Shown here piece after piece: positions 7,886 to 35,624 of a stretch of 64,000 bases of DNA. The DNA lies in contig OX453278.1 in NCBI GenBank assembly GCA_949710005.1, positions 4,830,936 to 4,894,935 of the forward strand. Direction: 5' to 3'. The notes beneath the pieces are model-generated. The model saw nothing but the letters and a program-made list of their open reading frames with translations. It made no database searches and was not told the origin of the DNA. The DNA is from Ricordea florida (Eukaryota > Cnidaria > Anthozoa > Corallimorpharia > Ricordeidae). The stretch's first letter is position 1; each line of letters begins with the position of its first letter. Made by a program: the position numbers and the translations under genes.

Positions 7886-7903
7886 TTATGTGAAGGGCAC
7901 ACA

Positions 7904-7941: not shown

Positions 7942-7981
7942 TTGTCTTAGAGATTACAAATGCCAGTATACAATTCGTGCC

Positions 7982-11860: not shown

Positions 11861-12810
11861 GGTACAAATTGAAGCTCTTCGCGAACGAATCCCCGTTTTG
11901 GACCTCCACTCAAATAATACAAGACTGGTTGACCTGGTTCGATTATGGTTCGAGCCAAATCATAGACTTCAAGACTCCATATAGGATCAGTAGCCCTTCG
12001 TTTGTCCCCACCTTCATCTTCACCCGGGGCATAAAGATACCTGACTTGAACATCTGGAGGTAATCTCTTCTCATTCAACCCCACAGGTCGCTTGTAGTCT
12101 GGAGTTTTGGCGTCAATTGAGTCCATTTTCAAAGCTTCGTCAGGCTCTTTTCCAGTAATACGGGTGGTCTCACTGTTGAGGGTTTTCATGATGGCTGGCA
12201 ATCTATTCACCCAAACTGTGGATCGGGTATCACTAATCATCTCTTGGGCGTATTGATGGCTGAATAGCTTCTCACCGAGAGTCCTGTTGGCCCTCTCCAC
12301 AAAAGCTTGAGCTCTATGATTCCCAGCTTCACTACGCTGGATTGTGACTTGATGCTTTTTCATAAGAGTTGTTACATCACCCTTGAATTCTGTTCCCGGA
12401 TCCACCATTAATGTTTGTGGCCACTTCAACTTACGGGAATAAATCCGTTGAAAGGCATTGGCAACTTCACCACTCTCCTTTGAGGTCAATGGTTCGGCAT
12501 CCTTGTATCTTGACGCGATATCAATCACGACTAAGGCGTAGCGGTATGTTTTTCTTCTCACTGTATCGTGAGGAAGAAACAACAAGTCCGCCTGATGGAT
12601 CTGATTAGGCTTATTCACACTCCAATGTGGCCTGGGTATATACTTGGGGGCTGGGAGATAAATTTGCCACAAGGCTTGCTTTTCCAACCACGCTTTAGCG
12701 ACCTTTTCACTAACGTTGGCTGCTTTGGCCAATTTGGGTATGGCTGAGTATCCTTTCCAGTATCCATCAGTGGAGTAGTATAATCGATTTAAAACGTTAG
12801 AATCAGTCAT
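11821..12810 (-). CDS. Retroviral-like (rve) integrase (element B)
   Basis: This 329-residue homologue matches the integrases of elements A and C along the full length. Candidate catalytic residues are D75 (HQADLLFLP), D137 (VDPGTEF) and E172 (FVERAN). The C-terminal region contains RRATDPIWS and ends with a conserved GGPKRGFVREELQFVP block. It is transcribed opposite to its neighbours: divergent from the capsid gene, with 26 nt between start codons, and convergent with the polymerase. The frame is intact, so the element could be autonomous for integration. Confidence 0.92.
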   Translation of the reverse strand: MTDSNVLNRLYYSTDGYWKGYSAIPKLAKAANVSEKVAKAWLEKQALWQIYLPAPKYIPRPHWSVNKPNQIHQADLLFLPHDTVRRKTYRYALVVIDIASRYKDAEPLTSKESGEVANAFQRIYSRKLKWPQTLMVDPGTEFKGDVTTLMKKHQVTIQRSEAGNHRAQAFVERANRTLGEKLFSHQYAQEMISDTRSTVWVNRLPAIMKTLNSETTRITGKEPDEALKMDSIDAKTPDYKRPVGLNEKRLPPDVQVRYLYAPGEDEGGDKRRATDPIWSLEVYDLARTIIEPGQPVLYYLSGGPKRGFVREELQFVPQDTESPPSSVLK

Positions 12811-12836
12811 TTACAAACAGAACATAAGCATTTAAA

Positions 12837-14072
12837 ATGGCTTCTATACCAAGCATTCTTGATGTCAATCGCGTTCCAAGGACTCGCGAAGGGTTGAAGG
12901 CTATGACGTCATTAAATAGGGTCACACTAAACCCATCGTCAGCCGAACCTGGTGAGACGCTGTATATTGAAATACCAAGATTGAGTGAAAATCTTGTGAT
13001 TGTGCCCGGTAGCGTCTACATAACCTTTGACATGGTTGTGACTGGGCACAAAGACAACACTCTTGTCAATAATTTGGGAAGGAATCTGATTTCACAGTAT
13101 AAGGTTCTATTTGGTGGTGAAGTCGTCGAGGATCTTGGTAGATTTGATTTGTTTAAGACTTACCACGACTTGTTTTTGGCCACCGAAGACCGTGAGAATA
13201 GATTGAGACAGGGCATATCCAATGTCAACATAAGGAGGATTAGGGCCAATGCGGGGAACAAAGATACATCAAAAGCAAGGGACAATACTTTAGCTGTGAT
13301 TCACAACACTAGGTACGCCATTCCATTAGATCACACAATCCTCAAAGATCATGGCGTATTTTACCCAATAGGATTACCCCATCCACTTAGATTTGAATTG
13401 ACGTTGGCCAAAGTGTCTGATGTTGTGGTTTATTCAAACCGTGAAGCACCGCCTGATTACAAATTAATAAACATGGAGATGGAGTACCAGTGTATATCAA
13501 GCAATTCTTTGGCAAGTCAGGCTGTTGGGTCCTACACAAATGGGAAAGGGTTCACGTATGAAAAGGTTCTTCTTCACAAAACCTTCACAATCTCTGAGGC
13601 GAATGATTCTGTGATAAATCAGCATGTCAATGTGCCGAGGAGATCCATGACTGGTATACTATGTCTTTTCACCGCCCCTCATGCAGAAGGCCTCAGGGAC
13701 TCTGAGATGTTTGCAAACCCGAAGATCACGTCAGTCAAGATTGACATAGATGGAGTGCCCAACCAAGTTTATTTGAAAGGTATGATGGCGACTGATTTGT
13801 GGCAATCCATAATCAAGCGAGTTGGCCTTAGTGATTCAATCGATGAATCTGATTTCTACACAGATAAGTTCGCTTTGTGGATTGACCTGAGGACTTATCC
13901 AGACAACGACATCCATGGAAGTGGTTTGTACATTCACGCTACTCGTGATGGAGTGACTTTGGAAATTAAGAGAGAAAAGGTAGGCACTAGAGTTCTTACG
14001 TGTCACATGTTTGTTATTGCTGACGCTGTCATGAGCATTGTTAATGGTGGCCTAAAGGAGATTAGATATTAA
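12837..14072 (+). CDS. Major capsid protein, probable double jelly-roll type (element B)
   Basis: A 411-residue protein homologous to 659-1897 and 43040-44281. Shared blocks include LNRVTLNPSSAEPGETLYI, a middle region ending FGGEVVEDLGRFDLFKTYHDL, RRSMTGILCLF and DKFALWIDLRT. It is the first gene of a long co-directional block that runs to about 22.5 kb and contains mostly membrane and virion-like proteins. Capsid identity rests on length, family conservation and pairing with the packaging ATPase. A 12-nt palindrome lies just after the stop, which suggests the capsid transcript may end separately from the next genes. Confidence 0.77.
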   Translation: MASIPSILDVNRVPRTREGLKAMTSLNRVTLNPSSAEPGETLYIEIPRLSENLVIVPGSVYITFDMVVTGHKDNTLVNNLGRNLISQYKVLFGGEVVEDLGRFDLFKTYHDLFLATEDRENRLRQGISNVNIRRIRANAGNKDTSKARDNTLAVIHNTRYAIPLDHTILKDHGVFYPIGLPHPLRFELTLAKVSDVVVYSNREAPPDYKLINMEMEYQCISSNSLASQAVGSYTNGKGFTYEKVLLHKTFTISEANDSVINQHVNVPRRSMTGILCLFTAPHAEGLRDSEMFANPKITSVKIDIDGVPNQVYLKGMMATDLWQSIIKRVGLSDSIDESDFYTDKFALWIDLRTYPDNDIHGSGLYIHATRDGVTLEIKREKVGTRVLTCHMFVIADAVMSIVNGGLKEIRY

Positions 14073-14083
14073 GCCGCTGTATG

Positions 14084-14114
14084 GTTTTCTTCTCAAAGTG
14101 TCATGAGAAGAAAC
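14084..14114. terminator. Palindrome after the capsid gene
   Basis: GTTTTCTTCTCA (14084-14095) pairs with TGAGAAGAAAC (14104-14114), one base unpaired, only 12 nt after the capsid stop codon. A TCTAAAG promoter-like motif for the next gene follows immediately at 14119. This gives a compact stop-hairpin-promoter-start arrangement. Confidence 0.55.
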
Positions 14115-14118
14115 ATCA

Positions 14119-14132
14119 GTCTAAAGGGATTC
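14119..14132 (+). promoter_or_regulatory. Late-type motif before the ATPase gene
   Basis: GTCTAAAGGGATTC lies 16 nt before the ATG at 14148. It matches the motif seen before most structural genes of element C (ATCTAAAGAT) and other genes of B. Confidence 0.45.
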
Positions 14133-14147
14133 ATGTAATGAGTAACG

Positions 14148-14783
14148 ATGAACGAACTCAGAGATTTGATTCCATTCAATTGCATCATCACTGGTCCCAC
14201 GAATTGCGGAAAGACCCAATACATAGTGGAACAGCTTCGAGGGCACTATAGGCAAGTGTTTGATTATATTGTGTTGATTTGCCCAACATATGCCCACAAC
14301 AAGACGTATAGAGGTTTTGCCAAAGGGGACAAACGATTCTTTGTACTGTCGCCAGATGCCAGTGACCATGACGAAATCAACAATTTGTTGATGGACTGTG
14401 AATCGTTCTTCTCGGGTACCAATACGCTCCTAATATTGGACGACTGTGCCGTTTCCAAGGATCTGAAGAATAGGTCCAACAAATTCATCGGTTTGGCCTT
14501 CTCTGGGAGACATGTAGGGATATCAGTGTGGGTTCTCACTCAGCAACTGACATCTATAGCCAAACCATTCCGTGAAAATGTAGCTTGTGTGGTCTCATTC
14601 CACAATCCGTCACAAACGGCGATGAAGATGCTTTTCGAGGAGTATGGCGGGGACCTGGATGCTGAAACGTGGAAGAAACTCAAGAAGCATCTTATGAATG
14701 AAAAGTATGCCAGGCTATGCTTCTCCCTCAGACATCCATTCCAAAACTATTTAGAAATACCGGCTCTAACGGCACAACCATGA
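14148..14783 (+). CDS. A32/FtsK-like genome packaging ATPase (element B)
   Basis: A 211-residue P-loop ATPase. Walker A is GPTNCGKT near residue 16, Walker B is LLILDDC near residue 94, and the SGRHVGISVWVLTQQL block follows. It aligns end to end with the ATPases of A and C. Its stop codon overlaps the start of the next gene in an ATGA junction (14780-14783). By family, it should drive DNA packaging into a capsid built from the neighbouring gene's product. Confidence 0.9.
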   Translation: MNELRDLIPFNCIITGPTNCGKTQYIVEQLRGHYRQVFDYIVLICPTYAHNKTYRGFAKGDKRFFVLSPDASDHDEINNLLMDCESFFSGTNTLLILDDCAVSKDLKNRSNKFIGLAFSGRHVGISVWVLTQQLTSIAKPFRENVACVVSFHNPSQTAMKMLFEEYGGDLDAETWKKLKKHLMNEKYARLCFSLRHPFQNYLEIPALTAQP

Positions 14784-15328
14784 CAACGCCTGAAGAAATC
14801 ATGAATGGTCAAACTGCAGTGGTGGAACAATCACCGCCAACCATGAACGTCGATGATGTGAAAGCCAAAAGAGAAGAGCTGGCAATACTAGCTTCTCTAG
14901 GCTCTAGCAAGGAGTATCTTGGCACTCAGATGGCTCTAGGTGACGTCCACAGATTGTCGGATAGGGACGTAGAGAAGTACTACAAGAGGTACAAGATGGT
15001 GTCTGGTAAGAATGTGGCTGAAGGACTATTTGATCCTCCTTTACATCTATTGGCCAGACTAGTCAACTGGTCTCTTAGTAGTTACGGTGGAATAGATGAT
15101 CCAGATGCTTTGGTAAAGGATTGGAAGAACAACCAGTTGATCAAGCAGGCGCTGTCAGAATATTCTGGTTCAATAGTGGTACATGGTGGTGCGATTGTTA
15201 CGTTATTGATAATAGCCATTACCGCTCTCAAGCATTTCAAACTAAAAGAGCCTAGTCCCCCAGCTACATTGTACGACATGGCTAATACGGATGAAGATTG
15301 GGGTGAGGGCGTTGACACTGTTCGGTGA
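14780..15328 (+). CDS. Conserved single-TM protein, unknown function (element B)
   Basis: A 182-residue protein. The ATG at 14780 overlaps the ATPase stop, and the resulting MTTPEE start matches the MTKPED start of the element C homologue (41813-42367). The conserved core includes LAILASLGSSKEYLG, LGDV and RDVEKYYKRY. One hydrophobic segment occurs near residues 130-150 (VVHGGAIVTLLIIAITAL). Both homologues end with EGVDTV plus one residue, so the C-terminal tail is probably functional. Position between the packaging ATPase and other membrane proteins suggests a virion or assembly role, but I recognise no family. Confidence 0.7.
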   Translation: MTTPEEIMNGQTAVVEQSPPTMNVDDVKAKREELAILASLGSSKEYLGTQMALGDVHRLSDRDVEKYYKRYKMVSGKNVAEGLFDPPLHLLARLVNWSLSSYGGIDDPDALVKDWKNNQLIKQALSEYSGSIVVHGGAIVTLLIIAITALKHFKLKEPSPPATLYDMANTDEDWGEGVDTVR

Positions 15329-15343
15329 AAAAATTGAAATTGG
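15328..15343 (+). promoter_or_regulatory. Early-type promoter motif AAAAAATTGAAATTGG
   Basis: This contains the 15-mer AAAAATTGAAATTGG, identical to copies at 22066-22080 (+) and 24956-24970 (-). It begins at the stop codon of the previous gene and ends 47 nt before the ATG at 15391. The AAAATTGA core equals the published Mimivirus early promoter; that part is established knowledge and the link here is inference. Confidence 0.6.
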
Positions 15344-15390
15344 AGGTGTAAGGGGTCGGTGTGAAGGCATACTCGAAAGAGATCGAAAAC

Positions 15391-16266
15391 ATGTCTCAGA
15401 GAACAAACTCAACTTCCTCAACTGGCTCAATGACGTCATGTTTTGTACCACTTGACAAGACCGACTTTGATTGGGATTCCATAGTCGTGGATGAGCCCAA
15501 GAAGAGTGGAAGGTACAACTGTGCCTTTTCCAAAGTCTTTGTGATGGATGGTGGTGAAAAGAAGAGCGTGTCTTTTGAAGTGGAAAAACAGGACATATGG
15601 GGCTTGTCATGGTCTTACAAAGACATGAACAAAAAGGATTCCGCCAACATCAATGGGATTCAAGTGAAGTATCCATTGACGTCATTTGAGACCAGGAATG
15701 CTCCAACTCTTTCGGAACAGGAAACCCAAAATAGGATTGACAAGATTGTAGAAATCGTTGGGTCCAGTCTTCAAAGATTCTACAAGAACAAAGACACCCG
15801 AAAGGAGCTGCCCAGTATCAGTGATGCTAAAAAGGCATTGTTGAAAACCGACCCAAGTGATTTGGTGAAAATGCCTTACTCGTTTCCAAAAAACAAGGAC
15901 ACCAAAGATCTTGACACCTCGAGGCCATTGGAGATGTACTTGAATTTCAAGACGAGTGGTGTTGGTATCGACAAAATAAGGTGTCATACTGTTTTCAAGG
16001 GTCGCAAAAGGCATGAGACCTTCAGAAATTACTTGTATGATCCTGAAAACAGCACCAGAGCATGCTCTCATATGGCGTTGAGATGGGAGTCTGTGTATTA
16101 TGGAGCGCATGGTACAAACGATGCTATCGCTTCTGCCAAATTAGTGGTTCAACACATTAAGTTGAGTAAGCCAATGGTTGAATTCGAACCGGTGGCAGAT
16201 GAAGAGGCGGTGCTTGGTGGTGATTCGGAATATGAAGAAGACTCAGACGAAGAAGAATCAGACTAA
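15391..16266 (+). CDS. Probable DNA-binding/early protein with acidic tail (element B only)
   Basis: A 291-residue soluble protein with no homologue in element C. The ATG at 15391 is preferred; a GTG at 15361 would add ten residues and lies close to the promoter motif. The body is rich in charged and aromatic residues, for example KQDIWGLSWSYKDMNKKD. The last 25 residues are very acidic, ending in a run of D, E and S. An acidic C-terminal tail after an aromatic-rich core is typical of single-stranded DNA-binding proteins, and the gene has the early-type promoter shared with polymerase. That makes an SSB-like role plausible but unproven. A 7-bp palindrome follows the stop. Confidence 0.6.
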   Translation: MSQRTNSTSSTGSMTSCFVPLDKTDFDWDSIVVDEPKKSGRYNCAFSKVFVMDGGEKKSVSFEVEKQDIWGLSWSYKDMNKKDSANINGIQVKYPLTSFETRNAPTLSEQETQNRIDKIVEIVGSSLQRFYKNKDTRKELPSISDAKKALLKTDPSDLVKMPYSFPKNKDTKDLDTSRPLEMYLNFKTSGVGIDKIRCHTVFKGRKRHETFRNYLYDPENSTRACSHMALRWESVYYGAHGTNDAIASAKLVVQHIKLSKPMVEFEPVADEEAVLGGDSEYEEDSDEEESD

Positions 16267-16298
16267 GATTAATAGTGGTTGGGTGGGATCTGACAGTT

Positions 16299-16321
16299 TC
16301 CTAGTATACAACTTACTAGGA
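16299..16321. terminator. Palindrome after the acidic-tail gene
   Basis: TCCTAGT (16299-16305) and ACTAGGA (16315-16321) form a 7-bp stem 32 nt after the stop at 16266. A GACTTAAAAATAAG motif for the next gene follows at 16322. Confidence 0.45.
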
Positions 16322-16335
16322 GACTTAAAAATAAG
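16322..16335 (+). promoter_or_regulatory. Late-type motif before 16354 gene
   Basis: GACTTAAAAATAAG ends 18 nt before the ATG at 16354, with the TTAAAA core shared by other structural genes. Confidence 0.35.
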
Positions 16336-16353
16336 AATAAGTTAACTCACAAC

Positions 16354-16746
16354 ATGTCTGAAGAAACAAGTCAGGTTGAGCAAATCACTAGAGAGCCTTC
16401 TGTCAAAACCAAGGTCAAAGACCCCAAGAGAGTTCAGGCTGGTAAAACGTTATCGGAAAAGAACAAGAGGGCCAGAGAGGCTTTGAAACGTGAAGAGGAA
16501 AGGGAGAAGAAAGAGAGTGAAAAGGAAGAGAATAAGGGTAGCTCTGGTGGTGGGAGAGGTGGTTGGATGACGTCCCAAACTATCTTTTTAGCCATAGGTG
16601 CAATTGGCCTCACCGCCTATGGACTGTGGAACAACTATCGAGACAGGATACCTGACTTGCATTTTCCATCGAAACCCAAAGTCACAGAAAGTCAGCCCGT
16701 GGCCAGCAAAGCAAAGGAAACTGATTTAAAAGATGACGTGTTATGA
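16354..16746 (+). CDS. Conserved basic single-TM protein (element B)
   Basis: A 130-residue protein with a highly charged N-terminal half: KDPKRVQAGKTLSEKNKRAR, then a run of K and E. This is followed by one hydrophobic segment (TIFLAIGAIGLTAYGLW, about residues 75-92). The element C homologue is 41347-41775, which shares the DPK-V-AGK-L-NK-AKEAL block. The charged region is probably helical or coiled. It is followed closely by another small membrane protein, so the two are likely co-transcribed. A membrane-anchored virion component is possible; no family is recognised. Confidence 0.68.
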   Translation: MSEETSQVEQITREPSVKTKVKDPKRVQAGKTLSEKNKRAREALKREEEREKKESEKEENKGSSGGGRGGWMTSQTIFLAIGAIGLTAYGLWNNYRDRIPDLHFPSKPKVTESQPVASKAKETDLKDDVL

Positions 16747-16752
16747 TCCAAA

Positions 16753-16974
16753 ATGACGGAGAATAAGCTCGTGAAGACAGTTACTGGCTCTGCAGTGCTC
16801 GTTGGATTGTCAGCTGGGATGGGCTGGCTTGGCAAAAAGGCTCTTCGGGAGTCGTTCATCGGTGACCCATCGACCAGTATCATGAACTATGCCAAATGGG
16901 TAGGTGTGCTGACTATAGCCATGTATGTCAAAACCTATTTAGAGGATCAGAAGATACTACCCACAAGTGATTGA
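16753..16974 (+). CDS. Small conserved membrane protein (element B)
   Basis: A 73-residue protein nearly identical in layout to the 72-residue element C protein at 41080-41298. Shared features are an ENKLVKTVT start, a VLVGLSAGMGWLGKKALRESF-like glycine-rich segment, a DPS-S--NYAKWV block, a second hydrophobic stretch, and the KTYLEDQKILP end. Two short hydrophobic stretches suggest a hairpin membrane protein. Strong conservation of such a small protein between divergent elements argues for a real virion or entry function, which cannot be specified. Confidence 0.72.
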   Translation: MTENKLVKTVTGSAVLVGLSAGMGWLGKKALRESFIGDPSTSIMNYAKWVGVLTIAMYVKTYLEDQKILPTSD

Positions 16975-16976
16975 AC

Positions 16977-17363
16977 ATGCCTTTGAGTTTCACTGAAGCA
17001 ATTAAAGATGCTCAAACTGATTACATCATTGATCTTATGAGACACATAAGACAATCATACGTTAATGCTTTACATGAAGCTGAGTATCTCTCTACTGCGA
17101 GAAATTCAGAGGTTGAAATCGACCCCATGCCTAGTAACAGAGAGCTTATCGAATGGTATTTCAAACTTGGAAATAGACAATTTCATCGTGCCAAGGAGCC
17201 TAGTATGGTAAGCTATCTTTTGAGAGATATGGATAAGGAACTTGATGAGACCGGCAAAAAGTCAGAACAACCACGACTAAGCCCACACCCACTGGTGTCA
17301 TTTACGCTTGGAGTGTTGACAGCGACCGCATTATACACAGGCTCGAAATTGTTTAAGAAGTAG
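16977..17363 (+). CDS. Hypothetical protein with C-terminal TM segment (element B only)
   Basis: A 128-residue protein starting at the ATG at 16977, just after the previous stop at 16974. The first 100 residues are polar and helical in character (TEAIKDAQTDYIIDLMRHIR). The C terminus has one hydrophobic segment (LVSFTLGVLTATALYTG) before a KLFKK tail. Element C has no counterpart between the matching neighbours (41298 and 41078), so this is an accessory gene of B. Function unknown. Confidence 0.6.
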   Translation: MPLSFTEAIKDAQTDYIIDLMRHIRQSYVNALHEAEYLSTARNSEVEIDPMPSNRELIEWYFKLGNRQFHRAKEPSMVSYLLRDMDKELDETGKKSEQPRLSPHPLVSFTLGVLTATALYTGSKLFKK

Positions 17364-17379
17364 GACAACAAATGGATAA

Positions 17380-17784
17380 ATGGCGACTATAGCAATCATG
17401 CTTGGAGGGGCAGTCCTCAACGCAACGGCCTTCATTGGTGGAAACTATTTAGCAAAAGTCATTAGCGGCTCGTCTTCGGCCGATCTCCAACTTGAAAGGG
17501 AAAGGCATGACAAAGCCATGGAGAAGTACCAGAAAGACTATGCTGCTTATCAAGAGAGACGAATGGCTTATATTGACTTTGAGAACCGTAGGAAGGGTGA
17601 TGAGAATCAAGCCTCTGAGAACATATCAAAGACGGATGAAGCGCTAAGATTGTACAACCAAATGGGCAATCCCCCCAAATTCTCAGACTATTACCGACCC
17701 AATTCAGATCAAAAGACTGGAGAAATGGTTTATGTTTCTGGTGGGATGTTAGCCTTGGGATACATTGCCAGCAAGTGGATATGA
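17380..17784 (+). CDS. Conserved small protein with two TM ends (element B)
   Basis: A 134-residue protein, homologous to 40686-41078 of element C. The N terminus is hydrophobic (ATIAIMLGGAVLNATAFIGGNYLA). The middle is a charged helical region (HDKAMEKYQKDYAAYQERR). The C terminus carries KFSDYY-P-DQKTGEMVYV followed by a hydrophobic GGMLALGYIASK end. Both ends and the DQKTGEMVYV block are strongly conserved. The layout suggests a membrane-associated virion protein. The stop overlaps the start of the next gene. Confidence 0.7.
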   Translation: MATIAIMLGGAVLNATAFIGGNYLAKVISGSSSADLQLERERHDKAMEKYQKDYAAYQERRMAYIDFENRRKGDENQASENISKTDEALRLYNQMGNPPKFSDYYRPNSDQKTGEMVYVSGGMLALGYIASKWI

Positions 17785-18020
17785 TGACTCCCCATGAGTA
17801 TGTCAAGTTGGTGGGGACCAGAGCTGAACAATTGCAGATGGGCAGTAAACCAGTGATAGACTGGCCATTTGATTTCAACCCTATAGCCATTGCCAAGAGT
17901 GAACTCAAACAGCGCGTTTTGCCCCTTGCTATAATTAGAAAGATCCCGGACTGCAATTCAAAGACTGGTTTCCGCGACGAGATATGGGACCTAAACGACA
18001 TGCATATACGAGACTTTTGA
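17781..18020 (+). CDS. Small hypothetical protein (element B only)
   Basis: A 79-residue protein. The ATG at 17781 overlaps the preceding TGA (ATGA junction), implying translational coupling or at least co-transcription. It is mixed in charge without a membrane segment, and no family is recognised. No homologue lies at the matching place in element C. A late-type motif for the following gene begins right after its stop. Confidence 0.5.
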   Translation: MMTPHEYVKLVGTRAEQLQMGSKPVIDWPFDFNPIAIAKSELKQRVLPLAIIRKIPDCNSKTGFRDEIWDLNDMHIRDF

Positions 18021-18023
18021 AAT

Positions 18024-18039
18024 CAGTTTAGAAGTTTCC
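18024..18039 (+). promoter_or_regulatory. Late-type motif before 18056 gene
   Basis: CAGTTTAGAAGTTTCC ends 16 nt before the ATG at 18056. It resembles the GTCTAAAGATTTC motif found before the element C homologue (40560-40569 on the minus strand). Confidence 0.4.
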
Positions 18040-18055
18040 ATATTCAACTTCAAAT

Positions 18056-19000
18056 ATGGCAACTGCTTATGATGATCCTGATTTGGATCCGACTACACTA
18101 AATGAGGCAGGTGATGGTGGTGATGGGGATGATACACTTTACTTGAGCCCAATCACAAAGACATCCACCACTCGTCCAATTGAACCTGATTATGAAGAGG
18201 AAGAAACCTCGTTCGGTGGTGTTGATGAAACTCGGCCCTTACTGATAGAAGAGATGGAAATTGAACAAGATGAAGCCTGGGCTAAGATTAGATCAAGATT
18301 CCCCAAAGTTGATACTTCGAAGTTTACAGCCAAACTGAATGAATTCAAACAAGTAGTCGTCAAATTGCTTAGGAAAGGATCAAAACCTTATGTGTTATTC
18401 AAAGGTGATGATGAATTGAATGATGGATTGCCAGACACCATCAAAAACAATCTAGGCCCAAGAGCAGAAGAAGTTGTGGAAGCCAATGATGGTGTGATCG
18501 CTGAGAAAAAGGGATTGCTCACCAAAATGAAGGAGACGCTAAGATTCCAAAGGGATAAACCGCTGAAGACCCCAGAAGAAGAAAGTAACATAGAGACTCT
18601 GGAGAGGGAAATCGGTGAGCAGGAGGAGGAGATAGCCAATTTGGAGGGTGAGAATGAGAGAATCCAGGAACGAATGTCATTGCGGGATCGTGTAAAGGCC
18701 ATCTTCAAGAAATACGGATTCACAGTCTTTGCTGTCATGAGTGCCGTTGGAGTGGTCATTGGTGTCATAGTCTCCAACCTCTCCAAAGGGCTCTCAAGAT
18801 TGGGCAAGGGTGTTGGTGATGGGCTAAAAAACCTTGGGAAGAAACTTGGCGAATTGCTGCCTGGGATGGTGGGCGCTATTGTAAGCTTTCTGTTCAAGAC
18901 TGCTGGGGAGGTCGTCTCATTCCTGGGGAAACATGCCTGGCTGTTAATAATGGCGGTTGTGCTTTACTTCATAGAAGAGTTAAAAAGGAAACGTACATGA
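18056..19000 (+). CDS. Conserved coiled-coil/TM virion-like protein (element B)
   Basis: A 314-residue protein homologous to 39535-40536 of element C. The layout is an acidic, disordered N terminus; a DEAWAKIRSRFPK block near residue 72; a long glutamate-rich coiled coil ending RIQERMSLRDR; and a glycine-rich amphipathic region (GVVIGVIVSNLSKGLSRLG). A C-terminal membrane segment is followed by a basic tail. The C-terminal 110 residues are much more conserved than the rest. The mix of amphipathic and membrane-active segments is reminiscent of membrane-lytic minor virion proteins, but this is only a structural analogy. Confidence 0.7.
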   Translation: MATAYDDPDLDPTTLNEAGDGGDGDDTLYLSPITKTSTTRPIEPDYEEEETSFGGVDETRPLLIEEMEIEQDEAWAKIRSRFPKVDTSKFTAKLNEFKQVVVKLLRKGSKPYVLFKGDDELNDGLPDTIKNNLGPRAEEVVEANDGVIAEKKGLLTKMKETLRFQRDKPLKTPEEESNIETLEREIGEQEEEIANLEGENERIQERMSLRDRVKAIFKKYGFTVFAVMSAVGVVIGVIVSNLSKGLSRLGKGVGDGLKNLGKKLGELLPGMVGAIVSFLFKTAGEVVSFLGKHAWLLIMAVVLYFIEELKRKRT

Positions 19001-19185
19001 ATCAAATGAAGAGCTATTGTGTCAAAGAGAAAAAGCTGACTGATTGTGTACCTGGTAGTGAAACCTTCGCCAAAACAGCCAAAGGAAGGCCGATGATGAA
19101 GTGTAAATGTTCCAGCTGCGGCATCATCAAAACTCGATTCCTCTCAGAGGCTGACTATAGAAGTTTAAAGATGACGAAGAAGTAG
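18997..19185 (+). CDS. Small zinc-ribbon-like protein (element B)
   Basis: A 62-residue basic protein whose ATG overlaps the preceding TGA. The pattern is YCVKEKK near the N terminus, FAKTAKGRPMMKCKCSSCG in the middle, then TRF. That resembles the small NGRPMxKxxCxxCG zinc-ribbon proteins (DUF5679-like) found in giant viruses and some Polinton-like viruses; this is recalled similarity only. Cysteines C8, C17 and CKCSSC could bind a metal. The end of the gene contains the promoter-like motif of the next gene. No counterpart was found in element C. Confidence 0.6.
   Translation: MNQMKSYCVKEKKLTDCVPGSETFAKTAKGRPMMKCKCSSCGIIKTRFLSEADYRSLKMTKK
19161..19175 (+). promoter_or_regulatory. Late-type motif before 19195 gene
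   Basis: AAGTTTAAAGATGAC lies inside the end of the preceding gene, 19 nt before the ATG at 19195. TTTAAAGAT matches the motif before the moved homologue in element C (ATCTAAAGAT, 37111-37120). Confidence 0.45.
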
Positions 19186-19194
19186 TCAAACAAC

Positions 19195-19827
19195 ATGTTG
19201 AGCATTACTATGTACGCGTCTGAATCCAGGGTGTATTTGGATCCCCCATTGGAAGAGGTTCGGGAGATCCAACTCCTCGACTGTATTGTACCCAAACGAT
19301 TGATCAACTTCAAAGATCGACAGGGCTTTCTCAAGGAGGATAATCGACCCATCTTAATAATCCCACCCGGTACATACTCTCTACGTGACATACACGCAAT
19401 CCTTCTGAACGATACGGATAACGCCAAGCTGTCGATCATTGAGACTGACACCGTTGATTACCTGTACTCCAACAAGAGTTTCAACATTAAACTCACAAGA
19501 GGTCTCCAAGTTGCTCTTGGGGTGCCTGAAATCGTAATCCCTGGAAAGCTGTACCCCATCAACATACAGATTAAGGAGCCGCTGAGACTTTTATGCAGTC
19601 TAGTGGACAATAAGTCGTCATATGCGAATGAGACTAAGTATGGCGACCTCGTGAAACTCTCACCTTCCCACCTCCTTGCCAACATACCATCACAGGATTA
19701 TCCAACCGTTCCAGTCCAAAACCATGAGACTCTCCTAACCCACTTCGACTTAAGCATCCTCGACATTGGATGGAAGAAACTTGATCTGAAGGGGTCTCCC
19801 ATAACCGTCAGCCTAAGGTTCAGATAA
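19195..19827 (+). CDS. Candidate minor capsid/penton-like protein (element B)
   Basis: A 210-residue protein homologous to 36450-37085 of element C. Conserved blocks include MLSITMYASESRVYLDPP, REIQLLDC, PPGTYSLRDIHAILLND, ETDTVDYLYSN, GVPE--IPGKLYPINIQI and LKGSPITVSLRFR at the C terminus. It looks beta-rich and soluble, with no membrane segment. Length and virion-gene context would suit a single jelly-roll vertex (penton) protein, which every Polinton virion should need, and no other protein here fits better. This is inference. The gene occupies a different place in element C. Confidence 0.6.
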   Translation: MLSITMYASESRVYLDPPLEEVREIQLLDCIVPKRLINFKDRQGFLKEDNRPILIIPPGTYSLRDIHAILLNDTDNAKLSIIETDTVDYLYSNKSFNIKLTRGLQVALGVPEIVIPGKLYPINIQIKEPLRLLCSLVDNKSSYANETKYGDLVKLSPSHLLANIPSQDYPTVPVQNHETLLTHFDLSILDIGWKKLDLKGSPITVSLRFR

Positions 19828-19828
19828 C

Positions 19829-19843
19829 ATCTTAAAAGTAAGT
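19829..19843 (+). promoter_or_regulatory. Late-type motif before 19859 gene
   Basis: CATCTTAAAAGTAAG ends 15 nt before the ATG at 19859 and directly follows the previous stop. Confidence 0.35.
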
Positions 19844-19858
19844 GGTCCTCAGTCCAAA

Positions 19859-20461
19859 ATGGGAGAATATAAGGCGATTTACCCTACCTTGGAAGCCACT
19901 GCACCTCCTCCCACTGATGGACCATCCTTCAGGCTTCAACAATGTTGTGATGCCTTGAACAAGCTAAAGTCTGAATTAAACCACTACGAGACAGTACTCA
20001 AAAAATACAACCGATCCAAGGGCACACTCATGAATGTAAGCTCGACCTGTGGTATAATGTCTTGCATTTTGGCGGCTGGCAGTCTGGGCACGTCGCTTAG
20101 TGGTGTCGGAATCGTCGCATCTGTACCATTGGGTGTGGTGAGTGGTGTATTTGTGTGCGCATCCATAGCGTGTCAACAGATATCCAAGAGACTGTCCCAG
20201 AAAGCTGTGAAGCATCAAAACACCATCACACTGGCCAGATCCAAGATAAACACCATTGAAGACCTGGTTTCCAAAGCCCTTCGTGACAATACGATCTCTG
20301 ACTCAGAATTCTCGTTGATCATGGACGAACTCAAGAAATTCGAAAAGCTTAAGGCTGAGATACGGGCTAGGGCTCAAAAAAATGTGAGTGGAGAGGACCC
20401 GTTGGTGCTGAGGCAGAGAGTACGCAACGAAATCCTCAAAGAACTAAAAGGAGGACCATAA
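19859..20461 (+). CDS. Conserved protein with central glycine-rich TM region (element B)
   Basis: A 200-residue protein homologous to 38877-39494 of element C. An N-terminal helical stretch (FRLQQCCDALNKLKSELNHYE) is followed by a long hydrophobic, glycine-rich segment at about 65-105 (AAGSLGTSLSGVGIVASVPLG). A C-terminal coiled-coil half follows, with KHQNTITLARSKINTIEDLV and ISDSEFSLIMDELKKFEKLK. In both elements it is next to the large TM-anchored protein (20532-22067 or 37137-38750). The layout is that of a membrane-inserting virion or effector protein; no family is recognised. Confidence 0.68.
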   Translation: MGEYKAIYPTLEATAPPPTDGPSFRLQQCCDALNKLKSELNHYETVLKKYNRSKGTLMNVSSTCGIMSCILAAGSLGTSLSGVGIVASVPLGVVSGVFVCASIACQQISKRLSQKAVKHQNTITLARSKINTIEDLVSKALRDNTISDSEFSLIMDELKKFEKLKAEIRARAQKNVSGEDPLVLRQRVRNEILKELKGGP

Positions 20462-20488
20462 CTATCATATATGAGCAAAACAAATACT

Positions 20489-20503
20489 AGCTTAAACGTT
20501 TGA
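20489..20503 (+). promoter_or_regulatory. Late-type motif before 20532 gene
   Basis: TAGCTTAAACGTTTG lies 28 nt before the ATG. A palindrome-like CTTCTACC ... GGATAGAAG (about 20507-20531) separates it from the start. Confidence 0.3.
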
Positions 20504-20531
20504 ACTCTTCTACCCAAATTCTGGATAGAAG

Positions 20532-22067
20532 ATGGTCTTACTCGATGATTTCAAAAACAAGTATCCAAAGGCTGACCTTAACCAATTCAACTTTGTGAAC
20601 GATCAATATGGGGGGTACATTAGATGGAAAGATAACGGTATGACAGTCATGTCCTATGATGACCCCACTGGCAAGACATGGACTGATGGGATGCAACCAA
20701 GTTTGAAATCGCGACTCTGGACTGATCTTGGACTGGCCGCACTGAACTCATTCCCGCCAAGCTTAACCATGACCAAACGATACTACCCGATACCCGCCGT
20801 TGATTTTGACAGCCCCACCAGTAACACTACAAACATGCTGACCTCGCTGGACATATACGTGTCCAATACGAAGAAATTCACCGCCAAGATGCGTAATGTT
20901 TTCACCTCCCAAGTTGTAACTTTCAAGTTTGGGAAACAAAGTCGAAAGTGGTTGAACGCTCCCGACATGAACTACTGGCCACAACAACTGAACTTTGCAG
21001 TGTGGTGTGCGACCTCTGGCTGTGGGATTAGCCCCTTCGAGAGCCTCAACTACCCCAAAGTCGTAAATAGCTTCATCAAGTTTCATGTGTATTTCACCAT
21101 AAGACGAATATTGTATGAACTGAGCCTTCCACTGCCTGATGAGCAACCCTTTGTAATCAACAACAACCCTTACAGCAAGGTCGCTTATCAACGATTGTGC
21201 GCTGAATTTGGCATCTCAAACAACTCTGACTTCAGATGGAAAGGTGGACGAAACGGGGGTTTGGGTGACATATTCATCGATTATGGGGCTGGATACCATG
21301 GTGTAGGTGGAGGATACCAAAACGTCCATATGGTAAGAAACTATGACGATGGAGCTGACCAATGGCCTGGTGAAGGTGGCAAATTCGCTGATGATGGGGG
21401 TAAGAAGGAAAAGGGCGACCTCATTTCATTCATCCGTAATGACGACTTTGCTGATTACAAGTATGCTTGGTTCATACCAACGAGTGGCTATGGACTCACC
21501 AAGGCTGGGCTAGGCAGGTTGAATCGGTCTGCTGAAGCCTTTGTTTACTGTGTGCTGGGGGCTCAAGTCAACACTAGAAACTCGATTGTGGGCACTGGTG
21601 GTGGGGCGATCGAAACTCAACAAGAGTTCTTGGCCCTGTTTGAGAGTAGTGTGATCGAGAACGACATTTCGAGTTCAATCCAAAGGTACCAACTGGCCAA
21701 TCAAGAGGCTAAATTAAGGCTTGATTTAGCCATTGCTCCTGGAGTGTGGTTGATGCCCAGTAACATGATCATAAACACGGAGAGTGTGGTCGGGTATAAC
21801 AACAACCTCATGAAGGCCACTGATGGGATGAAATTTGGTGTCAACACAAACATAAACCTGGAGACTAAGACTGTGGGGATCAGCCATAACCTGGGCTCTT
21901 CCAAGGTCAAGTTGCCACATGCAATTGTAGAGACTACACGTTCAACAACAACACCAACGATTCCTCCTCGACCTGAAATCAAAGAAGAAACAAATACCAA
22001 TCATGAAACCAACCTGATACTGTTAATCGTTGGAGTTGGAATTGCCGCTTGGATGCTCTTCAGATAA
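20532..22067 (+). CDS. Large conserved protein with C-terminal TM anchor (element B)
   Basis: A 511-residue protein homologous to 37137-38750 of element C. Conserved blocks include DDFKNKYPKADL, GKTWTDG, NYWPQQLNFAVWCATSGCG, AYQRLCAEFG, GLGDIFIDYG, SGYGLTKAGLGRLNRS and VNTRNSIVGTGGGA. It ends with a Thr/Pro-rich linker, a single hydrophobic segment (LILLIVGVGIAAWML) and FR. A large globular part plus one C-terminal anchor suggests a virion surface or internal membrane protein, possibly in receptor binding or membrane fusion. That role is inferred from layout only. Confidence 0.7.
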   Translation: MVLLDDFKNKYPKADLNQFNFVNDQYGGYIRWKDNGMTVMSYDDPTGKTWTDGMQPSLKSRLWTDLGLAALNSFPPSLTMTKRYYPIPAVDFDSPTSNTTNMLTSLDIYVSNTKKFTAKMRNVFTSQVVTFKFGKQSRKWLNAPDMNYWPQQLNFAVWCATSGCGISPFESLNYPKVVNSFIKFHVYFTIRRILYELSLPLPDEQPFVINNNPYSKVAYQRLCAEFGISNNSDFRWKGGRNGGLGDIFIDYGAGYHGVGGGYQNVHMVRNYDDGADQWPGEGGKFADDGGKKEKGDLISFIRNDDFADYKYAWFIPTSGYGLTKAGLGRLNRSAEAFVYCVLGAQVNTRNSIVGTGGGAIETQQEFLALFESSVIENDISSSIQRYQLANQEAKLRLDLAIAPGVWLMPSNMIINTESVVGYNNNLMKATDGMKFGVNTNINLETKTVGISHNLGSSKVKLPHAIVETTRSTTTPTIPPRPEIKEETNTNHETNLILLIVGVGIAAWMLFR

Positions 22068-22080
22068 AAATTGAAATTGG
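22066..22080 (+). promoter_or_regulatory. Early-type promoter motif AAAAATTGAAATTGG
   Basis: This copy is identical over 15 bases to those at 15329-15343 and 24956-24970 (-). It overlaps the stop codon of the preceding gene and precedes the SLOG-like gene, ending 28 nt before the ATG at 22109 or 13 nt before the ATG at 22094. Confidence 0.6.
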
Positions 22081-22093
22081 CAAACCATAGATC

Positions 22094-22482
22094 ATGGCCT
22101 CGCAAATCATGACATCATTGGCAATCATTGGCAGTAGGTACTTCAATGACATGTCCTTCTTGAAAGAGCAAATACGTAAAGCCCTCAAGAAATGGAAGCT
22201 GGATCTCTCCGACATACAATTGATTGTGTCTGGGGGTGCAGAAGGAGTTGATGAACTGGCCAGAGATTTTGCCATTGAACAGGAGATCCCATTCAAAGCG
22301 TTCAAAGTGAACCTCAATGGGACTATTATGGCAAGGCGGCTGGGCCAATTCGCAATAGAGTGATCATGGAGTGTGCAACGCATGTATTGGCCTTGCCTTC
22401 TTGTATTTACTCACCAGGTACTAAATCCGCTATTAAGTTGGCTAGGAAATACAAGAGAGAGGTTATAGTCGTTTATGTCTAA
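22094..22482 (+). pseudogene. SLOG-family (YspA/DUF2493-like) nucleotide-sensor gene with frameshift
   Basis: The first frame (22094-22363) begins with SLAIIGSRYFND, followed by LIVSGGAEGVDELARDFA, the characteristic nucleotide-binding start of the SLOG/DprA-like DUF2493 family. Around 22320-22330 the family's expected glycine-rich continuation switches to the -1 frame, which then stays open to a TAA at 22480-22482 with GTKSAIKLARKYK and a VIVVYV end. So the gene is split by a -1 shift, from either mutation or programmed frameshifting. No classic slippery heptamer was recognised. The ATG at 22109 may be the true start. Members of this family bind nucleotides or their derivatives in bacterial and phage conflict systems; its job here is unknown. 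Confidence 0.65.
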
Positions 22483-22496
22483 TGATTAAGTGAACT

Positions 22497-22521
22497 TTTG
22501 TAACGTGAAGCGCGTTACAAA
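22497..22521. terminator. Palindrome between convergent genes
   Basis: TTTGTAACG (22497-22505) and CGTTACAAA (22513-22521) form a 9-bp stem. It lies 14 nt after the SLOG-like frame's stop and 14 nt after the stop of the minus-strand Cys-rich gene, so it could end both transcripts. Confidence 0.6.
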
Positions 22522-22535
22522 TGTCTTTGGATGCC

Positions 22536-23009
22536 TCACAAAGGCCCACACTTTTCACAATCCTTTCGTAGCTTAACATGACGACAAACATACTCTCCAC
22601 TACACAAATGGCACATCTGTTTCTTATTATTAGTCTTAATTCTACCATGTTCACAATAACGATGAGGGCTACACATTTTACACTGACGTTTCTGTCTATC
22701 ATGTATGCAGATACCTACACCACCGCACTCTTTACAAAGATATTTCTGTCGACCATGTTGACAAATCCCTCTGCCACCGCACTCTTTACACTTTGATTTT
22801 TGTCGATTATGTAGGCAGATACCTGCACCGCCGCACTCTTTACAATGATATTTACGTCTACCATGTTGACAAATCCCTCTGCCACACTCTTTACACTTTG
22901 ATTTTTGTCGACTATGTTGACAAATCCCTCTGCCACCGCACTCTTTACAATAATATTTTTGCCTACCATGTGGACAACGTTTTCTTGGTTTAACTTGAGC
23001 ACAATCCAT
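22536..23009 (-). CDS. Tandem Cys/His zinc-binding repeat protein (element B)
   Basis: A 157-residue protein made almost entirely of seven or so repeats. Each has a CxxC (CKECGG) followed by IC-x-H-x-R-x-K, as in CKECGGRGICQHSRQK. Spacing is regular at about 19-21 residues, so each repeat should hold a zinc ion with C-C-C-H ligands. Element C has four comparable repeats fused behind a SAP-like segment (35148-35603). From memory, the same CKECGG-x-ICxHxR repeats are common in giant viruses and some protists and rare elsewhere; a search would decide. Function is unknown; nucleic-acid binding is a reasonable guess. It is transcribed leftward with the two genes to its right. Confidence 0.75.
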   Translation of the reverse strand: MDCAQVKPRKRCPHGRQKYYCKECGGRGICQHSRQKSKCKECGRGICQHGRRKYHCKECGGAGICLHNRQKSKCKECGGRGICQHGRQKYLCKECGGVGICIHDRQKRQCKMCSPHRYCEHGRIKTNNKKQMCHLCSGEYVCRHVKLRKDCEKCGPL

Positions 23010-23270
23010 TGTGTGTATACCACCACAGTATAAACATCAGTTACACTTTTGTAATGTCACACACTCCCACGCTTCCGTTTTAATACCACGCCCCATTCCA
23101 TACATACTTTTACGACGTAGCAACCGCGATTCTATAAATGGGTTTGATGTTTACTTTCTGAAGGCCCGTTTCTAACGTCGCTCAGGAATGTAATGACGTC
23201 AATGTAAACCCATTTTGAACCGGAATTGAACCGGAAATTTTTTGACCTCACTACGCCCCTCTAATATAAC
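23010..23270. other. Intergenic region of element B with no gene seen
   Basis: No convincing coding frame is present. The stretch contains GTAATGTCAC-type sequence near 23052 but no clean palindrome. The leader of the Cys-rich gene lies here. Confidence 0.4.
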
Positions 23271-23297
23271 TTTTGTAACACGGTACATGTTACAAAA
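23271..23297. terminator. 10-bp palindrome after the 23311 gene
   Basis: TTTTGTAACA (23271-23280) pairs perfectly with TGTTACAAAA (23288-23297) across a 7-nt loop. On the minus strand it begins 13 nt after the stop of the gene at 23311-23949. Confidence 0.65.
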
Positions 23298-23310
23298 ATA
23301 TCATGCATGA

Positions 23311-23949
23311 TTACCAATTAGCCCCCCAACGCTCCTTCACCTCTTGAAACTCTTCCAAATCAAGACACCAGTATACAAACCTACTTGGGTGCCATGCAAC
23401 AGACATTAGTTCTTCCCAAATTTCATTTCGAAAAATACGTTTGTGTATGCCCTTCCAAGCCTCATGCAACAACTCGTCTTTGAAACTTATGTACACCGCA
23501 ACTGAAAGATCCCCGATAAGAAGCTCGTCGACAGAATATGGCCGTTCGAGGTCAGCGTCAATCATACCAAACAGAGCTAACTCTTCAGCACCCTTACATA
23601 ATTTCTCAGCGATGTCTTTAGCACACAACTTGTCAAAGTCTTTCGAATATTCATAAACAATCTCGTTGTCGTCAATAAGAAAATGAGCCATGGTAAACAC
23701 AAGACGAACCTTCTCAACAAAACACTGGTTGAAACTAGAAACTATATATAATATGCTTAATTTGTGTTCTTCCAGAAAATCATTAACTCCTAACCGACCC
23801 ACGTTGCCACATAAGAAGTCAAATGATGCTGGCATTCTCATCGCGTATGTGTAGGGCCTTTGAGGAGCCATATACCAATCCCTACCAACGTCAGACCTAC
23901 GTATCAATCCCACAAATTCACTCGTCGTCTCGTCCATTCTGTAAGCCAT
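23311..23949 (-). CDS. WHPS-motif protein, internal paralogue (element B)
   Basis: A 212-residue protein of unknown function. The C terminus (ELMSVAWHPSRFVYWCLDLE) matches that of the left terminal gene 7298-7885. Its leader GGCATACGCAAACGAAATG is the same as the inner end of both terminal repeats, although this copy is not terminal. The ATG at 23949 ends that leader. An AAGATTGATATTTTAGG motif 35 nt upstream is related to the early-type motif. This gene and its right neighbour look like a small accessory module whose 5' control region was copied from the terminal repeats, or the reverse. Confidence 0.7.
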   Translation of the reverse strand: MAYRMDETTSEFVGLIRRSDVGRDWYMAPQRPYTYAMRMPASFDFLCGNVGRLGVNDFLEEHKLSILYIVSSFNQCFVEKVRLVFTMAHFLIDDNEIVYEYSKDFDKLCAKDIAEKLCKGAEELALFGMIDADLERPYSVDELLIGDLSVAVYISFKDELLHEAWKGIHKRIFRNEIWEELMSVAWHPSRFVYWCLDLEEFQEVKERWGANW

Positions 23950-23983
23950 TTCGTTTGCGTATGCCAATCGCTACACACGCCGA

Positions 23984-24000
23984 CCTAAAATATCAATCTT
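23984..24000 (-). promoter_or_regulatory. Early-type motif before the internal WHPS paralogue
   Basis: Read on the minus strand it is AAGATTGATATTTTAGG. It shares ATTGATATTT with the motif before element C's WHPS gene (35655-35670) and similar spacing to the start codon. Confidence 0.4.
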
Positions 24001-24005
24001 ATACT

Positions 24006-24034
24006 TTTTTGTAACACGATCCATGTTACAAAAA
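24006..24034. terminator. 11-bp palindrome after the right terminal gene
   Basis: TTTTTGTAACA (24006-24016) and TGTTACAAAAA (24024-24034) form a perfect 11-bp stem, 27 nt after the minus-strand stop at 24062. It is almost identical to the palindrome at 23271-23297. Confidence 0.65.
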
Positions 24035-24061
24035 TGATCACTTAAAACTTGACTACCCCTG

Positions 24062-24493
24062 TTAATAACAGACATACAACTTGCCTTTCAACACATCGTC
24101 AATTACATAACGTTGAAATTTGCCATAATCATCACTAGCAACCAAGTCATCACTAACATTCAAACGGATATTAACCGTGATGATTTCGTACTCGTCAGAT
24201 CCATAATTGGCTACACAACGTTCATGAAAATCGCTACAAAGACCTTCAATGTTCAAAACGTCCTCCAACCTTCTTTTGGTTAATACTCTAAACTTGTAGC
24301 CCAAATAGTCAAACGAAACGACCTCTTTGAAAAGTTTACAAATGTCGTTGGACGCGAAATGTTGAAAGAAGCCAACCATTTCGTCCCTCATCTTGGTAAT
24401 GAAATCATCATTACGTAGCTTGTTGCAATTGTAAAGAGCCAACTCCATATAATTGAAAACTGTGTTGAATTCAATTTGCAGGTTTCTTTGCAT
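24062..24493 (-). CDS. Hypothetical protein, right terminal gene of element B
   Basis: A 143-residue protein, the mirror-image partner of the left terminal gene. Its ATG (24493) is the last codon of the right terminal repeat. The coding part is unrelated or very distant from the left gene and lacks the WHPS tail, ending VLKGKLYVCY. It is mostly alpha-helical in composition. Because its promoter and leader lie wholly in the terminal repeat, it should be expressed like the left terminal gene. No function can be assigned. Confidence 0.6.
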   Translation of the reverse strand: MQRNLQIEFNTVFNYMELALYNCNKLRNDDFITKMRDEMVGFFQHFASNDICKLFKEVVSFDYLGYKFRVLTKRRLEDVLNIEGLCSDFHERCVANYGSDEYEIITVNIRLNVSDDLVASDDYGKFQRYVIDDVLKGKLYVCY

Positions 24494-24789
24494 TTCGTTT
24501 GCGTATGCCAATCGCTACACCACTCGACCCAAAATCCCACTTTAACAACTCGGCCCCCACCCCACCCCCCCCAAAGGACATCGATGATCCAAACGAAAAA
24601 AACGACACGACGGAAAAAAGTCATCGATCAAAAAAAATCAACCAAGTCAAACTCGACTCGACCCAATTAATTATGCACAAACTTTTTTGACCACACCCAT
24701 CCGATAAAATCGACCACACCCAAAACCACGATTTCGCAAAAAAATCGATCAAAATCAAATTGCGCCAGAATGCCCACAATCCAACTACT
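24491..24789 (-). repeat. Right terminal inverted repeat of element B
   Basis: This is the inverted partner of 7001-7300. The outer end CCAACTACT complements the left AGTAGTTGG. One base shorter than the left copy because of a poly-C run of eight instead of nine. Confidence 0.9.
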
Positions 24790-24794
24790 GTTTG
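24790..24794. repeat. 5-bp target site duplication GTTTG, right copy (element B)
   Basis: Direct repeat of 6996-7000, immediately outside the right end of element B. Confidence 0.75.
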
Positions 24795-24927
24795 GGATCT
24801 GTTCAGGTAAGGTGGTGTCTATATTACCCAACGCTTCGATAAGTTGAGCTTTACGCAATTCATACCATTTTTTAATACCCCTCTCTCGGGCAAGGGCTTT
24901 CAGTTCTTTGACTTTTTTGTTCTCCAT
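24790..24927 (-). pseudogene. Separated N-terminal piece of element A's DNA polymerase
   Basis: From the ATG at 24927 the frame gives a SAP-like helix-turn segment (NKKVKELKALARERGIKKWY) very similar to the first SAP repeat of element B's polymerase. It then runs into the right end of element B. The rest of the gene begins at 7000 on the other side of B. A piece of about 46 residues carries the start codon and promoter but no catalytic part. The frame currently reads on into B's terminal repeat for about 40 codons, giving only a nonfunctional fusion. Confidence 0.8.
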
Positions 24928-24955
24928 CTTTCTTACTAATATTCATTTCTTTAAA

Positions 24956-24970
24956 CCAATTTCAATTTTT
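24956..24970 (-). promoter_or_regulatory. Early-type promoter motif upstream of element A polymerase
   Basis: On the minus strand the sequence is AAAAATTGAAATTGG, identical to the two copies in element B. It ends 28 nt before the ATG at 24927, with TTTAAAG in between. Confidence 0.6.
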
Positions 24971-35603: not shown

Positions 35604-35624
35604 AAGCGAAGAATAGGCAATTAT

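Follow-up and report, generated by a model that had tools for sequence, protein, structure and literature searches.

It is a standing question how the Polintons of animals are expressed and if virions are ever made from them. We address it in a 64,000-nucleotide stretch of the genome of the corallimorph Ricordea florida (assembly GCA_949710005.1, contig OX453278.1, positions 4,830,936 to 4,894,935; the whole stretch is called the window), which contains three Polinton-type elements, here A, B and C. An early-promoter-like 15-mer in the window is accompanied by a second positioned element and by stem-loops at 3′ ends, and it is this combination that gives the elements the look of genomes signalled in the manner of nucleocytoplasmic large DNA viruses (NCLDV). 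From sequence features, we predict that the elements most likely carry functional NCLDV-type expression signals.

An early-type word before four genes

The first-pass annotation of the window had reported a 15-mer, AAAAATTGAAATTGG, in three identical copies 13-47 nt before three genes. We re-found the exact copies, each on the coding strand before an ATG:

15329-15343, + strand: 15-mer, 47 nt before the ATG at 15391 of B g291
22066-22080, + strand: 15-mer, 13 nt before the ATG at 22094 of the B SLOG-like gene
24956-24970, - strand: 15-mer, 28 nt before the ATG at 24927 of the A polymerase gene, with TTTAAAGAA directly after
24790-24927, - strand: first codons of the A polymerase gene (ATG 24927), a detached N-terminal part
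2871 to about 6995, - strand: remainder of the A polymerase gene

Element B (window 7001-24789) sits within the polymerase gene of A and splits it; the portion of the gene that follows the copy at 24956 is therefore the detached N-terminal one. Whole-window shuffles contain a mean of 0.01 matches to the 15-mer, and three copies were found in 0 of 100. AAAAATTGAAATTGG is also the sole 15-mer with at least three copies outside hand-masked repeats in A, B and C; at least one triple 15-mer arises in 5 of 200 shuffles, and we regard a chance origin of the triplet as unlikely. The annotation's "related forms" do not stand out in the same way: when up to 3 mismatches are allowed there are 14 sites where 11.8 are expected, a number reached in 31 of 100 shuffles. 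The forms at 7926 and 35655 coincide with stem-loops, their starts being at the 3′ arm or within it.

A shorter word, AAAATTGA, occurs eight times in the window and four times in the elements. All four element copies lie 27-61 nt before a coding-strand ATG (A polymerase, B SLOG, the acidic-tail gene B g291, and C WHPS). In a fixed 60-nt window it is present in 3 of 37 upstream regions (expected 0.59; equalled in 4 of 500 shuffles). The fourth gene is preceded by:

35658-35665, + strand: AAAATTGA before C WHPS (ATG 35701), followed by ATTTAAAAAG

Two of these four genes probably function in replication, the DNA polymerase of A and a gene for a protein resembling single-stranded DNA-binding proteins (SSB), and none is a capsid gene.

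15391-16266, + strand: B g291, SSB-like by predicted fold, with an acidic C-terminal tail

The g291 structure model (mean predicted local distance difference test score, pLDDT, 61.8) resembles the ssDNA-binding protein CP312R of African swine fever virus (ASFV) (Foldseek E 6e-6, with a low TM of 0.37-0.39; together with a second match at E 1.3e-4, TM 0.37-0.42). A weaker resemblance is to T7 gp2.5 (Foldseek E 0.035). Three of six predicted g291 relatives begin with MKKLK in the leader where B carries the 15-mer; these starts are compatible with retention of AAAAATTGAAA at that place, protein letters being no proof of DNA.

Among related polymerase genes, those on two diverged fragments from GTDB contigs differ: one (L122) has AAATTGA 43 nt upstream, which is reached in 42 of 1000 shuffles, and the other (L121) has no such word in the upstream sequence inspected. 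IMG/VR contains at least 120 occurrences of the 15-mer. Among the matches listed, 98 are inside open reading frames (ORFs), 4 upstream and 18 elsewhere, so promoter placement is not a general property of the 15-mer. In the elements the word may act as a promoter and may set early rather than late timing.

A TTTAAAG-type element before most start codons

An unbiased expectation-maximization (EM) search of gene upstream regions recovered a second element, RT[T/C]TA[A/G]A ("TTTAAAG"), that was absent from the first-pass annotation. The input was 60 nt of upstream sequence for each of 37 genes; three of the 40 gene starts were left out for having a leader or terminal repeat in common with another gene. 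The log-likelihood was 64.6, compared with a mean of 31.8 (maximum 39.1) for 12 shuffles and a mean of 39.9 (maximum 44.7) for 12 samples of 37 drawn from 200 internal-methionine windows. In 29 of the 37 genes the distance from the best site to the ATG is 27-37 nt. At that distance 24 of the 37 genes, on which the position weight matrix was trained, score at least 7, compared with a single one of 200 internal windows. B and C show tight spacing, and training on C yields a motif that is well placed in A and B (p 0.0003-0.004). The sites include:

14119-14128, + strand: TTTAAAG-type, B ATPase
19163-19172, + strand: TTTAAAG-type, B g210, within the last codons of g62
24947-24956, - strand: TTTAAAG-type, A polymerase
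35667-35676, + strand: TTTAAAG-type, C WHPS
37111-37120, - strand: TTTAAAG-type, C g210, in the loop of a stem-loop
38777-38786, - strand: TTTAAAG-type, C g511, in the loop of a stem-loop
39521-39530, - strand: TTTAAAG-type, C g200
40560-40569, - strand: TTTAAAG-type, C g314, in the loop of a stem-loop
44308-44317, - strand: TTTAAAG-type, C major capsid protein (MCP) gene

Stem-loops at gene ends

Strong stems occur in 12 of 25 intergenic regions. The mean in 200 shuffles was 1.43 (maximum 5), and controls of the same lengths (40 draws each) reached at most 4 in coding windows and 5 in host flanks. We also scored gene ends, using 39 of 40 (one at the window edge was left out; those of two broken genes, SLOG and C WHPS, were placed by hand). 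A stem scoring at least 8 follows the stop codon at 13 of the 39 (shuffles: mean 0.98, maximum 5), beginning 0-33 nt past it. Two stem-loops are common to convergent genes, so the 13 ends represent 11 distinct stem-loops. Eleven regions chosen for their stems have RNA folding z-scores of -1.8 to -5.8. Polyadenylation (polyA) signals are not enriched, A[AT]TAAA following 4 of the 39 ends (6.9 expected). Some palindromes form families, with four B copies of one sequence and three C copies of another, and in C three stems hold the TTTAAAG element in the loop. The stem-loops are:

7904-7928, + strand: stem-loop, B palindrome family, 19 nt after the B WHPS1 stop
14086-14113, + strand: stem-loop, 14 nt after the B MCP stop
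16295-16325, + strand: stem-loop after the B g291 stop
18033-18064, + strand: stem-loop, 13 nt after the rpb6-like gene; covers the g314 ATG
22497-22521, no strand assigned: stem-loop, B palindrome family, common to the convergent SLOG and CxxC gene ends
23271-23297, - strand: stem-loop, B palindrome family, 14 nt after the B WHPS2 stop
24006-24034, - strand: stem-loop, B palindrome family, 28 nt after the B g143 stop
35624-35655, + strand: stem-loop, C palindrome family, 21 nt after the C CxxC gene stop
36411-36442, no strand assigned: stem-loop, C palindrome family, common to the convergent C WHPS and g210 ends
37090-37136, - strand: stem-loop with TCTAAAGAT in the loop, after the C g511 stop and before g210
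38747-38804, - strand: 13-bp stem with TTTAAAG in the loop, before C g511
40543-40587, - strand: stem-loop with TCTAAAGAT in the loop, before C g314
40653-40686, - strand: stem-loop, C palindrome family, at the C g134 stop

An Rpb6-like RNA polymerase subunit

The first-pass annotation saw no RNA polymerase in the elements. For one subunit this needs correcting, since B contains an Rpb6-like ORF:

17781-18020, + strand: B Rpb6/RPABC2/Rpo6-like subunit, 79 amino acids, assigned by sequence similarity

The ORF overlaps its upstream neighbor by 4 bases and lies inside the virion gene cluster of B. It matches RPABC2 in the PDB (E=1e-7, with the conserved core aligned) and ASFV C147L (E=2.5e-4); matches to NCBIfam subunit K (E=3.2e-11) and to Pfam (E=0.001) are under the curated cut-offs. 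A single-sequence structure model had a pLDDT of 46.6 and was set aside. Using tblastn, we found no Rpb6-like counterpart in C or the rest of the window, which holds the smaller part of A. The 29 proteins scanned with Pfam, which cover part of the C genes, gave no match to a further polymerase subunit (catalytic subunits included), a capping enzyme or a polyA polymerase.

How the elements may be expressed

We favor, with slightly better than even confidence, the explanation that A, B and C represent integrated viruses of the Polinton type with compact transcription units, NCLDV-style signals and a polymerase as described below. An early-class element, AAAAATTGA, lengthened to AAAAATTGAAATTGG in three places, would act ahead of replication and regulatory genes. 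A common and probably initiator-like element, RT[T/C]TA[A/G]A, about 27-37 nt before most starts, would serve genes that include those for the virion. Stem-loops 0-33 nt past stop codons would form about a third of the 3′ ends. The signals would be read by an NCLDV/poxvirus-like multisubunit RNA polymerase or, alternatively, by a host polymerase altered by element-encoded factors, to which the Rpb6-like protein of B is a candidate contribution.

More tentatively, a non-host or host-modified multisubunit polymerase may read both the early and the TTTAAAG signals and end at the stem-loops, with B supplying the Rpb6-like subunit. The elements would then be animal counterparts of virophages or cytoplasmic linear plasmids; this fuller proposal is possible, though we hold it with distinctly less confidence. 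A virophage-like life in an animal, as the first-pass annotation had proposed, is likewise possible. If the polymerase is non-host, virus-on-virus or cytoplasmic transcription, of a kind whose known cases to date come from protists and yeast, would take place in animals too, and there would be evidence at the level of function for the tie that joins Polintons to poxviruses and giant viruses. Readable start and stop signals, together with a polymerase subunit gene, make the polymerase question directly testable.

Several observations weigh against the favored explanation. The 15-mer itself is present at three genes only. On the distant contig L123, AAAATTGA is absent within 100 nt of 12 gene starts and there is no excess of stems. 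Training on A and B gives a TTTAAAG motif whose placement in C is not good (p values of 0.35 and 0.64; at K=8 the core was missed), and in plain k-mer counts of 32 of 35 upstream regions no word exceeds the best shuffle. Some TTTAAAG-type sites fall in codons of the preceding gene, a notable case being the TTTAGAGGA upstream of B g128 and C g134, whose codons specify a conserved peptide. TCTA, the late motif of Cafeteria roenbergensis virus (CroV) and mavirus, is not enriched (8 of 37 upstream regions, 8.4 expected). A strong stem is absent at 26 of 39 gene ends, including all three A ends tested. Host flanks are themselves richer in stems than their own shuffles (mean 2.70 versus 1.05). In the B palindromes three pairs are altered on both sides; this covariation is weak, being matched in 53 of 500 shuffles.

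A serious rival, which also counts against the favored explanation, is expression by host RNA polymerase II (Pol II). TTTAAAG would then be a variant TATA-like or initiator element, AAAATTGA would be an upstream element rich in AT, and the palindromes would be incidental or active in some other way. In favor of this are the integrated state of the elements, the likeness of TTTAAA to a weak TATA box, and the lack of a match to a catalytic polymerase subunit in the 29 proteins scanned. If a TATA box were placed 27-37 nt upstream of the ATG, however, almost no 5′ leader would be left; moreover, polyA signals are not enriched at gene ends, many stops are followed by stem-loops, and an Rpb6-like gene is present. 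We consider Pol II expression possible but on the doubtful side.

The palindromes could instead be DNA to which regulators encoded by the elements bind (WHPS, CxxC or SLOG proteins, for instance) and not RNA hairpins at 3′ ends. One sequence does recur in four B copies and another in three C copies, most family palindromes adjoin WHPS, g143, CxxC or SLOG genes, and hairpins of mimivirus are described as not conserved in sequence (PMC4402537). The palindromes nevertheless lie just past stop codons, also in long and convergent gaps, and the stems of B MCP, B g291 and C g511 are unrelated in sequence, which makes regulator sites a rather unlikely explanation.

Signals inherited from a common ancestor of Polintons and NCLDV and now out of use would fit the broken genes (A polymerase split by B, B SLOG out of frame, C WHPS with an in-frame stop). 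Tight spacing in B and C and the terminal repeats, which are 98-99% complementary and suggest recent activity, speak against such relics, and we judge them improbable. Chance or base composition, with AT-rich DNA giving the words, has in its favor the 5 of 200 shuffles with a triple 15-mer and the related forms at chance level, and is very improbable given that all three 15-mers precede coding-strand ATGs and that the motif and stem statistics exceed those of shuffles and coding controls.

Architecture of the elements

Terminal inverted repeats (TIRs), a hallmark of Polintons/Mavericks, are present in B and C:

7001-7300 and 24491-24789: TIRs of element B
34521-35177 and 49987-50643: terminal repeats of element C

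The two ends of A are not both inside the window, and most of A lies outside it. C is nested in a retroelement (window 30081-50838) whose 172-nt direct repeats (30081-30252 and 50667-50838) are 100% identical. TTATC flanks C on each side and may be a target-site duplication.

The A integrase contains an rve domain (PF00665, 35.8 bits, Pfam cut-off 32.6), and the B and C integrases are 71-75% identical to each other or to that of A in alignments. A also encodes an A32-type ATPase (PF04665, 47.8 bits, Pfam cut-off 22.8). The B MCP falls just short of the Pfam cut-off for Capsid_N (23.6 bits, cut-off 24). At E 0.001 it has 403 homologues and the B integrase has 3555; in each case the best 120 listed are mostly from ENA contigs. 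Relatives of the polymerase are present on contigs L121-L123. The Pfam scan gave no DNA_pol_B match for the polymerase; it contains DTDSL, which we take to be a polymerase-like motif.

Two further genes of B have predicted functions or domains:

22094-22363, + strand: B SLOG-like gene (PF10686, E 1.2e-8), intact N-terminal part; the whole gene is 22094-22482 and the frame breaks after 89 codons
18997-19185, + strand: B g62, small and Cys-rich, DUF5679 (E 4.8e-6, 27.1 bits, cut-off 27)

In C WHPS (35701-36410), similarity goes on past the in-frame stop. B WHPS1, WHPS2 and g143 (7298, 23949 and 24493) have a near-identical leader ending in ATTGGCATACGCAAACGAA directly before the ATG. Beside the TIRs, 22536-23009 in B and 35148-35603 in C encode proteins with repeated Cys/His units in 54-nt DNA repeats. 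The C Cys/His-repeat gene and the polymerase gene open with one and the same SAP/Rho_N-like leader, both being located in the terminal repeat. At 27642-29323 and 62065-63195 the non-element DNA includes a foldback with long inverted arms and 41-bp repeats, and a 106-bp tandem array.

Comparison with known systems

The elements resemble Polintons/Mavericks and adintoviruses in their rve integrase, A32-type ATPase, TIRs and PolB-like polymerase. They differ in an MCP just under the Capsid_N cut-off and in lacking OTU and chromodomain matches. Adintoviruses are defined by a PolB with an N-terminal OTU-like domain and an integrase with a C-terminal chromodomain (PMC11071296); in Pfam searches at E 0.1 we found no OTU-like domain in the B polymerase and no chromodomain in the A integrase, so by these two proteins the elements do not fit that definition. 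Cnidarian MCPs have been placed outside the main Maverick-Polinton cluster (PMC10120064). In IMG/VR no close relative was confirmed by MCP, ATPase and integrase scans or by MCP and integrase alignments, and the polymerase alignment gave L123 and eight loci that matched over short stretches only.

Virophage promoters, like Polintons themselves, are already known. In the literature searched (mostly titles and the openings of abstracts) we found no promoter study of animal Polintons and no paper pairing a Polinton with Rpb6 or TTTAAA with a virophage promoter. As far as that literature extends, an Rpb6-like gene with matched early, core and 3′ stem-loop signals has not been seen before in animal Polintons.

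Mimiviridae (Mimivirus, CroV and Bodo saltans virus, BsV) are reported to have an early element and palindromic stem-loops at gene ends (PMC4402537, PMC5294985, PMC5871332). The elements share the AAAATTGA/AAAAATTGA word, here a putative early element, and the gene-end stem-loops, which may end transcripts as the hairpins of Mimivirus do. Unlike Mimiviridae, they have the early word at four genes only, their common element is TTTAAAG-like and not TCTA or TGCG, some of their stem-loops share a sequence, and no viral polyA polymerase or RNase III is among the element proteins scanned.

For virophages, hairpin 3′ ends are described in Sputnik genes and the CroV late motif in mavirus genes (PMC6723459, PMC8547959). 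Like Sputnik and mavirus, A, B and C are small elements bearing giant-virus promoter motifs. They differ in that no helper virus is known here, in having no close relative confirmed by the IMG/VR scans and, for B, in an Rpb6-like gene.

Yeast linear plasmids and poxvirus early elements are reported to share an AT-rich element in which TGA comes after one free position; in this group an initiator region and 3′ ends formed by stem-loops at a median of 26 nt from the stop are also described (PMC6211774). The AT-rich plus TGA upstream element, the initiator and the stem-loops near stops are all paralleled in the window. Cytoplasmic linear plasmids and poxviruses have their own RNA polymerase and capping enzyme, whereas only an Rpb6-like subunit was found in the elements.

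Iridovirus IIV-6 is a large virus with its own transcription genes. Its DNA polymerase promoter contains AAAATTGATTATTTGTTTT, and AAAATTGA is described just upstream of the transcription start of that gene (PMC5294985).

Given that an iridovirus promoter, poxviruses and yeast plasmids share it in kind, the early word does not point to the Mimivirus group in particular. The attribution in the first-pass annotation thus holds for placement, the word being positioned like an early promoter before replication and regulatory genes, and not for the group, of which the word is not diagnostic. In combination, the early element, TTTAAAG and stem-loop 3′ ends resemble mixtures of the signals of mimivirus and BsV, of Sputnik and mavirus, and of yeast plasmids and poxviruses.

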